Source of the DNA: Candidatus Pelearchaeum maunauluense | GTDB taxonomy: Archaea; Thermoproteota; Nitrososphaeria_A; Caldarchaeales; Caldarchaeaceae | Length of the DNA: 64,000 nt | Direction: 5' to 3' | Assembly (NCBI GenBank): GCA_030059675.1 | Contig: JANVYQ010000003.1 | Span: 99,547-163,546, forward strand | Part shown: positions 49,430 through 53,228 of the stretch, in pieces | How the letters are laid out: each line of letters starts with the position of its first letter | Numbering within the stretch: position 1 is the stretch's first letter | Program-made: the position numbers and the translations under genes | Notes under the pieces: model-generated | Database searches by the model: none | What the model was told of the DNA's origin: nothing | What the model saw: the letters and a program-made list of their open reading frames with translations, nothing else

Positions 49430-50883
49430 TTGGCTAGTCGAGCTGAGAGAAAAACTAGAGGGAGGCCATCGCGGGTATTAGCGGTATTAATCCTAGCTTA
49501 GCTCTTCGCATTCTCCTTCCTAATCTATCTAATAATCATTGGACCATCTGCTCAACGTTCAGAGATGTTTGTAATAAGTGGGCCAATAATGGGCTTCAGC
49601 CCATACGTTGTGGAGTATGAGCTCCCCATACCTAACTCTGGGCCTATGGGTATAGTGGTTGATGATAGGGGAGTAGTGTGGGTAGCTGCTGCTAACGCTA
49701 CTTCTCTCATAAGCTTTGACCCTGTGGAGAATGTTTTTAGACGCTATAAGATACCCATGAACCAGACTGGGACAATAATTGGATGATTGACATAGACCCT
49801 AGCGGTAGGCTCTGGTTTCCCAGCACCTCTGATAATTCCGTCCGGAGCTTTGAGCCCAGAAGTGGAGAATTTACGCGCTATGAGCTTCCTTCACGCAACG
49901 CTTTTCCGCTACAACTGGATATAGATGACGCTGGGCGCGTGTGGGTTGCTGAGTTATCTAGCGGTAAGATAGCCGTGATAGAGCCTGAGGATGGCCTGAT
50001 AAAGGAGTATACCTTACCCAAGCATGGTGAAGGCGCATTAACACCTGCGCCTGTCTCAATAGTGGTTGATAAGGATGGCGTGGTTTTGGGTTTCTGAAAG
50101 AGCTTTAGGCAGATTGTTTAAGTTTTACCCAGATGAAAAACGGTTTGAAGAGATTCAGCTCCCAGAGACTATCTTCACGCCAGTGAGCTTGGGAATAGCG
50201 CCTGATGGCTCGTTGTGGTTTACGGATTTTGAAGAGCTTATGGGAAGCGTATTCATACAGTTTGACCCATCAAGCGGCCAGTTGAAGAGGTTCTCCACAT
50301 ATCCCAAGAATGGAAATCCATCGCTCCCGCTCTCACTCTCTATAGATGATGTTGGAAATGTTTGGATTCTGGAACAGGCTGGGAATAGAATCGCAAAATT
50401 CAGCCCCCGCCTCAACACGCTGCTTGAGTACGAGCTTCCGAGAGGAAGATTAACCTCATCACTCAACATAATACAGTTCATAGTAGCGCGGGATGGACGC
50501 GTGTGGTTTACGGAGTACTCGGAGAATAAGATAGGGTTTATAGATGCCCTAAAGACTATCCCATTCAGCGTCTCATTATCACAGAACTATGTGAAGACCA
50601 AGCCAGGAAGCGTGGTTAAGGTTGATGTGTTTATAATAGGCAAGCCGAAGACATCCGTACACTTCATGGTTTCTGGAACCCTCTCACCGTTGGGTAGGAT
50701 AATAAATGCCACAACAAGCTTTTCCCCAGCGTCATAATAGAGAAATACACACAAATAACAACGCTCACCATAGCTCTCCACGATAACATTAAACCAGGAA
50801 ACTACACCCTAACAGTAGGAGCATCAGACGGGCAAGTCATTAGCTCGGCTATACTATACCTAGAAATAAAGAACCGGAGCTGA
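49430..50883 (+). pseudogene. Beta-propeller (virginiamycin-B-lyase-like) membrane-anchored protein, degenerate
   Basis: Six or so NHL/Vgb-type propeller repeats (GIVVDDRGVVWVA, DIDPSGRLWFP, DIDDAGRVWVAEL, IAPDGSLWFTDF, SIDDVGNVWIL, VARDGRVWFTEY) spread over three frames. An N-terminal anchor helix is cut by TAG at 49499-49501 (LILA then LFAFSFLIYLIII). Frameshifts fall near 49775, near 50087 (one extra T in GGTTTTGGG) and near 50722 (one base short in TTTTCCCC). The 3' part ends in NRS and TGA at 50881. With four lesions it is a pseudogene or a poorly sequenced gene. The function would have been extracytoplasmic. Confidence 0.82.
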
Positions 50884-51039: not shown

Positions 51040-52215
51040 ATGAGTGAAGAGCTCCCCGCTGTGGGGGAAATTCTCATCCGCGAGTTTGAGAGCATTAATG
51101 TGGACGATACTCTTACTAAGGTTGCTGGGATTTTCTCGGAGAAGGATACGCCTATAGTCGTGGTTCTTGACGGTAGCAGTGAAGGGCGTGTTTATGGGAT
51201 TTTGACGGAGAGGATACTGTTACGTCCGCATATAAACATGGCGGAAGCTAAGGCCAAGTCATTCGCGATAAAAGCGCCTAAGCTTACGTCATCCTCAAGC
51301 ATAACTGAAGCGGCGCGCCTAATGCTTGAGAACAACCTAAAAGCGCTACCAGTAATGGAGGATGGAAAACCAATAGGCATAGTTACTGTGGATAAGATAG
51401 CAGAAGCAGCTCGGTCTGTTCTCCAGAAGACTCTGGTGAGAGATGTTATGACGAAGAACCCTGTTACCGTGAAGGCTAACGATACTATAGGTAAGGCTAT
51501 ATCGTTGATGCGTGAGATGGGTATATCGCGCCTGCCTGTTGTTGAGCGGGGAGCGCTCCGCGGCATAGTAACTGTTCATGATATAGTTGAGAAGGTTATC
51601 AAGCCCCGCGAGCGTGCCACCAGAGGGGAGACTGTAGGCGAGAAGGCCAGAACTCTAAGCAACAAGGTCTCGGAGATAATGTCAAAGCCTGTCATAACAG
51701 CGTCGCCGCGCGAGCCTGTTATAAAAGCGCTGCAAAAGATGAGCCGCAACGACGTCTCCTGTCTTGTCGTAGTTGATAACGGCTCCGTGGAGGGAATAAT
51801 AACAATGATGGATGTGCTTGAGCCGATAGCGCGGCTAGCAACAAGACAGGAGCAGGGAATATCCATACAAGTATCATACAAGATGGAGCATGTAGATTTT
51901 GATGATAAAGACAGGGTTATGGCTATAGCGGAGCGTTTCGTCAAGCGCTTTAACGAGTCGCTGGGAAATGGTTTCCTAACGCTATACTTCAAGGAGCATA
52001 AGGAGAAGCATGGTGATATGCATCTAATACACTGTAGAGCACGTCTTAAGACGGATAAGTATCAATTTGTTGGAACTGGAGAAGCCTGGCGCGCAGACTT
52101 TGCTGCGAGATCTGCTTTGGAGCGTATAGAGAGGCAGTTCCTACTCTCGCGCAAGCTTGCCTCAAAATACCCATACGCTGACGAGCTGCTGGAGCGGCTG
52201 GCAGAATCATACTAG
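51040..52215 (+). CDS. Four-CBS-domain protein with C-terminal HPF/RaiA-like domain
   Basis: A 391-residue soluble protein. Four CBS motifs in two Bateman pairs cover about 1-270 (for example ILTERIL near 49, GIVTVDKIAEAA near 113, GIVTVHDIVEKV near 174, GIITMMDVLEP near 247). Residues 275-375 (IQVSYKMEHVDFDDKDRVMA, then a HLIHCRARLKTDKYQFVGTG strand set and ARSALERIERQFLLSRK) have the strand/helix order of ribosome hibernation factors HPF/RaiA. CBS pairs normally bind adenine nucleotides, so this could link energy state to ribosome idling. The HPF match is by eye. It stands alone between tRNA-Thr and a zinc-ribbon gene. Confidence 0.75.
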   Translation: MSEELPAVGEILIREFESINVDDTLTKVAGIFSEKDTPIVVVLDGSSEGRVYGILTERILLRPHINMAEAKAKSFAIKAPKLTSSSSITEAARLMLENNLKALPVMEDGKPIGIVTVDKIAEAARSVLQKTLVRDVMTKNPVTVKANDTIGKAISLMREMGISRLPVVERGALRGIVTVHDIVEKVIKPRERATRGETVGEKARTLSNKVSEIMSKPVITASPREPVIKALQKMSRNDVSCLVVVDNGSVEGIITMMDVLEPIARLATRQEQGISIQVSYKMEHVDFDDKDRVMAIAERFVKRFNESLGNGFLTLYFKEHKEKHGDMHLIHCRARLKTDKYQFVGTGEAWRADFAARSALERIERQFLLSRKLASKYPYADELLERLAESY

Positions 52216-52385
52216 TCGCTAGACTCCCTAGATAATCTCTCATACTCCTCAACGCTCATTTCAATTATGAAAGGCCCAACATAGCCGCAGCCGCCGCACC
52301 TATACAGCATACCCAGAAAACCGCCCAGATGAAGGCTTAGATTCACGCCCTTACACTGGGGGCATACCTGAAGCTTACCACCCAT
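52212..52385 (-). CDS. Small zinc-ribbon protein
   Basis: A 57-residue protein with two CxxC knuckles, VCPQCKG near 7-13 and YRCGGCGYVG near 29-38, and an acidic tail. The ORF is open further upstream, but that part is antisense to tRNA-Arg, so I place the start at ATG 52385. The stop overlaps the CBS-HPF gene by four bases tail to tail. A nucleic-acid or protein-binding adaptor is the usual role of such domains. Confidence 0.75.
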   Translation of the reverse strand: MGGKLQVCPQCKGVNLSLHLGGFLGMLYRCGGCGYVGPFIIEMSVEEYERLSRESSD

Positions 52386-52431
52386 CCAACAACCCACAAA
52401 CACGACTCCTGATATATAGTTTATTGATACG

Positions 52432-52552
52432 CGGGCCCGGTGGGACTTGAACCCACGACCTCCGGCTGTCTTCCCACCTTTTTCTCTGCCTAGGAGGCCC
52501 GAAGGCTTGCGCATGCCCTTCGGCGCCCTCGTCCATTCTAGGCTACGGGCCC
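52432..52552 (-). tRNA. tRNA-Arg (CCT) with two insertions
   Basis: Minus strand: acceptor GGGCCCG/CGGGCCC, D-stem GCCT/GGGC, T-arm GTGGG/CCCAC, discriminator G. Restoring a normal anticodon arm (CCGGC, CTCCTAA, GCCGG; anticodon CCT) needs removal of two segments: about 22 bases at 52499-52520 between positions 29 and 30, which contain most of a CCGAAGG/CCTTCGG hairpin, and about 23 bases at 52468-52490 at the canonical 37/38 site. Mature length is then 76. The acceptor equals that of tRNA-Arg(TCT) at 57525. Intron borders are inferred from the cloverleaf. Confidence 0.9.
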
Positions 52553-52658
52553 CTTGGTTTCTATCTAGAACGAGCATAAAAGCATATGATATGAAGGTGT
52601 TACGTGGGCATATCGCTGATAGTTCTCCCAGTGTCTTCGGCCAGCAAGCCTTTTAGAG

Positions 52659-53228
52659 GTGTGTATAGCGTTTTGCCGTGTGCTTAATAAGCGTGGGAGG
52701 AGTCTGGAGAGGCGTCTTGACGAGGTTGTAGCCCAGCTCAAGATACATAACGATAAACTAAGTGCGCGCACAAGCTACATGTCATCGCGAGCGCGCAGCC
52801 TGTTTGAGCTCTCGCTAAGAGCCAAGGAAGAAAAGGATGAAGAACGCGCCATGCTCTACGCGAAGGAGCTCAGCGAGCTTAAACGCGTGCTATACACCAT
52901 GCTAAGAAGCCAGGCATCACTGGAGGGAATAATCCTACATCTAGAAACCGTGAGGGACCTCAATTCTGTCAGGAAATCCGTGAAACCAATACATGAAGTT
53001 CTGAGCCGGGTTCAGGAAGACGTTAAGGGAGCGGTTCCAGAAGTTGCCCACGAGCTCCTAAAAACACACTTGATACTTGATGATATTATGATTGAGATAG
53101 GCGTCTCATCAGACAGTAGCTACTCATACACCGCCGTTGATCACGATGCACAAGAAATACTCAATAAAGCCAGCGAAATAGCTGCGCAGCGCATGAAGAA
53201 GATTATGCCAAATGTTTCAAACGAGTAA
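52659..53228 (+). CDS. cdvB: ESCRT-III/Snf7-like protein (CdvB family)
   Basis: Archaeal cell-division or membrane-remodelling filament protein. The 189 residues are mostly helical and show the Snf7 pattern: a basic first helix (LNKRGRSLERRLDEVVAQL), DEERAMLYAKELSELKRVLYTML near 58-81, LEGIILHLETVRDL near 87-100, and VPEVAHELLKTHLILDDIM near 126-144. It has no C-terminal winged helix or clear MIM motif, so it may be a paralogue of the main CdvB. Start GTG 52659, or GTG 52680. CdvA and the CdvC ATPase are not in the window; CDC48 near 61 kb is a different AAA protein. Confidence 0.82.
   Translation: MCIAFCRVLNKRGRSLERRLDEVVAQLKIHNDKLSARTSYMSSRARSLFELSLRAKEEKDEERAMLYAKELSELKRVLYTMLRSQASLEGIILHLETVRDLNSVRKSVKPIHEVLSRVQEDVKGAVPEVAHELLKTHLILDDIMIEIGVSSDSSYSYTAVDHDAQEILNKASEIAAQRMKKIMPNVSNE

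Follow-up and report, generated by a model that had tools for sequence, protein, structure and literature searches.

Why would an archaeal genome carry a gene in which CBS domains are followed by a tail resembling a ribosome hibernation factor, and to which known family does its product belong? The question is raised by a 64,000-nucleotide stretch of contig JANVYQ010000003.1 (positions 99,547 to 163,546, forward strand), deposited as Candidatus Pelearchaeum maunauluense and analysed here as a whole as the window, in which an open reading frame (ORF) at 51040-52215 (+), with an ATG start, encodes a product of 391 amino acids. On the basis of its domain architecture, its predicted fold and its orthology by sequence, we consider this protein to be the archaeal ribosome hibernation factor HibA, with a probability of roughly 0.93. 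HibA has been a published family since April 2026 (PMC13324472), which makes the copy in the window a fresh member of a known family; the fusion of a CBS module to an HPF-like domain, pointed out in a first-pass annotation of this DNA, is likewise not new.

In a phmmer search against the PDB chains, 9sr9_H was aligned over residues 8-387 with E = 2.7e-61. This chain carries only the label 'Dehydrogenase' in the PDB chain set; entry 9SR9 is HibA of Pyrococcus abyssi with ATP, and 9SRA-9SRF and 9T7H are HibA complexes (PMC13324472). The tail alone also matched 9sr9_H (5.8e-12), as did profile A2, made of 15 tails (7.5e-16), and the alignment of the tail to P. abyssi HibA is nearly gap-free, also across the hairpin that links the long strands. 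A strongly conserved hairpin of the tail reads KEHKEKHG..HLIHCRAR here and RRFNEKFRG..HLYQARMR in P. abyssi. When the CBS module was searched alone, the best match was again HibA (3.2e-43, versus 9e-15 for Dri 9e6q_3) and, by this best sequence match, the module groups with HibA and not with the Dri/CM families. The window protein thus resembles HibA of P. abyssi (Q9UYR4; 9SR9-9SRF, 9T7H) and of Thermococcus barophilus in length (391 versus 392 amino acids), in its four CBS domains, in the 190-207 loop at identical positions and in the HPF/RaiA-like C-terminal domain, and aligns with 9sr9_H over the full length, although it comes from another archaeal order and its sequence is divergent. Since 9SR9 was absent among the fold-search matches listed, the identity as HibA rests on sequence.

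The fold of the tail was approached by structure prediction. The full-length AlphaFold2 model, built from four sequences, reached a mean predicted local distance difference test score (pLDDT) of 78 and a predicted template modelling score (pTM) of 0.60, with the tail elements E274-281, H287-308, E311-324, E327-338, E342-349 and H352-376. Because CBS modules, e.g., AMPK gamma, dominated the Foldseek search with this model and left the tail uninformed, a tail-only model was made without an alignment; it gave a pLDDT of 81.7, a pTM of 0.74 and an identical order of strands and helices. The strand-helix-strand-strand-strand-helix order of HPF/RaiA, which the first-pass annotation had placed at residues 275-375, is therefore found in both models, at residues 274-376 in the full-length one. 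The same annotation had proposed a Foldseek comparison of the tail with HPF/RaiA and, when the tail-only model was compared with the PDB, ranks 1-31 were all ribosome factors of the HPF/RaiA/protein Y type (best E 4.3e-6, probability 1.00; template modelling score up to 0.68 on the query). Plastids, mycobacteria, Listeria, Thermus and Vibrio are among their sources, and double-stranded RNA (dsRNA)-binding domains entered the list only from rank 32. A CBS module joined to an HPF/RaiA-like ribosome-silencing domain is thus supported by sequence, by the predicted fold and by homology to solved HibA-ribosome complexes. By contrast, helix 1 had been described as basic, but FDDKDRVMAIAERFVKRFNESL holds 5 K/R and 5 D/E and is not net basic. 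Above the cut-off, the tail is matched by no Pfam family; AcrIC5 and Rad51, suggested there by Pfam/NCBIfam, were weak, below the cut-off and taken as chance, and only the CBS part was named.

The front of the protein gave four matches to Pfam CBS (PF00571), all above the cut-off (4.4e-50), in agreement with the two Bateman pairs expected from the first reading of the sequence. CBS3 is closed by the T-x-x-D motif TVHD (178-181) and CBS4 by TMMD (255-258), and D181, G252 and D258 do not vary among 20 relatives. In the segment equivalent to the loop by which P. abyssi HibA reaches the peptidyl-transferase centre (PTC), G196, G200 and E201 are invariant in 20 aligned sequences. Residues 195-204, within this loop, are the lowest-confidence internal stretch of the full-length model, as expected for an exposed loop.

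The relatives keep the hibA frame at 48-96% identity, hence ORF 51040-52215 is not a chance reading frame, and in the alignment of 20 relatives 19% of the tail positions are invariant, against 12% in the CBS part; taken together, these data indicate a real gene whose tail is under constraint. The closest named relative is L031 of Candidatus Pelearchaeum sp. (96% identity), a name that occurs in a study of Caldarchaeales from Hawai'i and Chile; beyond L031-L033, most of the named loci among the relatives are other CBS proteins. The parts of the gene are collected in the table below. On the opposite strand, the gene of a short CxxC zinc-ribbon-like protein (52212-52577, -) shares 4 bases with the end of hibA. 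In the host's own family the C-terminal part of this protein keeps its place next to hibA, and the first third of its ORF may be non-coding.

Table. Coordinates in the window of the hibA-like gene and its parts; residue and window positions of the CBS domains were converted from contig coordinates, the window starting at contig position 99547.
Feature	Position	Strand	Basis
hibA-like gene, 391 amino acids, four-CBS module and HPF/RaiA-like domain	51040..52215	+	full-length match to 9sr9_H
CBS domain 1, about residues 8-62, weakest of the four (27.9 bits)	51061..51225	+	PF00571, contig 150607-150771
CBS domain 2, about residues 81-124	51280..51411	+	PF00571, contig 150826-150957
CBS domain 3, about residues 133-186	51436..51597	+	PF00571, contig 150982-151143
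Equivalent of the HibA PTC loop, residues 190-207, RERATRGETVGEKARTLS	51607..51660	+	gapless alignment to 9sr9_H residues 190-207
CBS domain 4, about residues 210-263	51667..51828	+	PF00571, contig 151213-151374
HPF/RaiA-like domain, residues 273-391	51856..52212	+	tail-only Foldseek, tail match to HibA, profile A2

What this protein would do can be proposed from the experiments on P. abyssi and T. barophilus, from which ribosome binding, inhibition, protection and nucleotide binding are carried over here by analogy. P. abyssi HibA consists of a CBS module (residues 1-269), with the PTC loop at 190-207, and of an HPF/RaiA domain with two archaeal-specific insertions; this C-terminal domain occupies the mRNA/tRNA channel of the 30S subunit, while the CBS module is found in three positions on the 50S subunit and its 190-207 loop reaches the PTC (PMC13324472). 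Moreover, HibA inhibited translation in extracts and, in T. barophilus, its deletion lowered stationary-phase 70S ribosomes by ~60% and doubled the lag before regrowth, from 2 h to 4 h (PMC13324472). By analogy, HibA of the window would plug the mRNA channel and the tRNA sites of idle ribosomes, so that translation would be blocked and the 70S would be held together, protected until growth restarts.

The first-pass annotation had gone further, proposing that nucleotide sensing by the CBS module makes the protein a direct energy-to-translation switch. A ribosome binding of HibA gated directly by AMP/ATP would fit the four CBS domains and the T-x-x-D motifs that close CBS3 and CBS4, as well as the dissociation constants of the isolated P. 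abyssi CBS module (12 µM for AMP, 65 µM for ADP and 113 µM for ATP; PMC13324472), and the CBS3/4 interface of the module described here is a probable adenylate-binding site, as judged by analogy. However, in the P. abyssi experiments with reconstituted 70S, AMP and ATP had no clear influence on HibA binding or on the distribution of its conformations: with AMP the conformational classes were unchanged, with ATP one extra, weakly populated state appeared, and the authors, who found nucleotides without clear effect on ribosome binding, left a regulatory role open (PMC13324472). For this reason the energy switch is possible but unsupported, and of the earlier interpretation the ribosome-silencing domain is supported whereas the direct switch is not. 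The P. abyssi test was made at equilibrium, without mRNA and tRNA, and hence is not final; even so, we regard a direct gate as unlikely. It is likewise rather doubtful that in this order the CBS module is a true adenylate gate on the affinity of HibA for the ribosome in competition with mRNA/tRNA, an effect that the equilibrium test would miss.

Other CBS proteins were also considered. A regulator of a non-ribosomal target (an enzyme, a transporter or transcription, like HhpR), with the HPF-like tail redeployed on a different RNA or protein, is conceivable insofar as reuse of CBS modules is widespread, dsRNA-binding domains do occur lower in the tail Foldseek list and P. abyssi HibA was recovered in pull-downs together with proteins of DNA recombination and replication; nevertheless, the full length, the loop and the tail all match a protein seen on ribosomes, and HPF/RaiA ranks above every dsRNA-binding domain, which makes this explanation very improbable. 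CBS modules with a similar fold have been solved on archaeal ribosomes for Dri of Pyrobaculum calidifontis (9E6Q, 9E7F) and for SriA-D of M. acetivorans (9ZNF, 9ZNG, 9ZNI), and the chains of Dri (9e6q_3, 9e7f) and SriA-D match the CBS module of the window protein in sequence and fold. A hibernation factor of the standalone-CBS or Dri type is, however, scarcely credible: these proteins are CBS-only, two CBS modules in the case of Dri, with no HPF/RaiA tail described and a much weaker sequence match than HibA, whereas here a single four-CBS module, far closer to that of HibA, is followed by the HPF-like tail, which refutes such an assignment. On the other side, bacterial and plastid HPF/RaiA/protein Y (PF02482) have a fold like this tail, with 8-19% identity in structural alignments, but are without a CBS module. 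Chain a of 9L96, a 406-amino-acid 'CBS domain-containing protein' (9l96, 9l98, 9l9c, 9l9v; 5.1e-39), is likely to be a further HibA whose structure was deposited under a generic name, given that both its CBS module and its tail match in sequence; our literature search found no paper for 9L96 or SriA.

The identification as HibA has to be weighed against the distribution of the gene and some features of the data. Within the host genome one protein matches HibA over the full length, the PF02482 search gave no match, and there is one homologue of SBDS, an occasional partner of HibA on idle ribosomes, whose presence speaks for HibA. All 8 members of the host's own family carry HibA and, across the order, the HPF tail is present in 23 of the 44 sampled genomes, spread over 10 of 14 genera. 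G006, G035 and G037 have shorter frames, which appear to reflect a contig end or broken frames. Neither HibA nor an HPF-like tail was found in the well-covered genera g5, g6 and g7 (G008-G013, G015-G020, G024, G025), and the tail profile search of the 44 genomes found no standalone HPF-like protein in the relatives devoid of HibA. Several points count against HibA: hibA is not essential in the order, as about half of the sampled genomes are without it; PF02482 (Ribosomal_S30AE) does not match this copy at the Pfam gathering score and matches no more than 6 of 15 relatives, weakly (best E 0.0019); and the packing of the CBS module against the tail is uncertain, since the full-length model rests on four sequences. 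The weak PF02482 matches are, for their part, an independent though faint sequence link to bacterial HPF.

Two other neighbours of hibA were observed. Upstream, two overlapping ORFs (49783-50737, +) are the halves of one Vgb_lyase-like beta-propeller, with a frameshift near 50090; in L031 they adjoin in a single reading frame, and here a sequencing error or a pseudogene would account for the break. Downstream, directly before a Usp gene, a 189-amino-acid protein (52659-53228, +) shows a sub-cut-off match to Snf7 (ESCRT-III; E 0.001) and is possibly a CdvB-like division protein.

As HibA, the protein of the window would add an archaeon near Candidatus Pelearchaeum to the known range of an experimentally established hibernation factor, whose distribution within one order is patchy.
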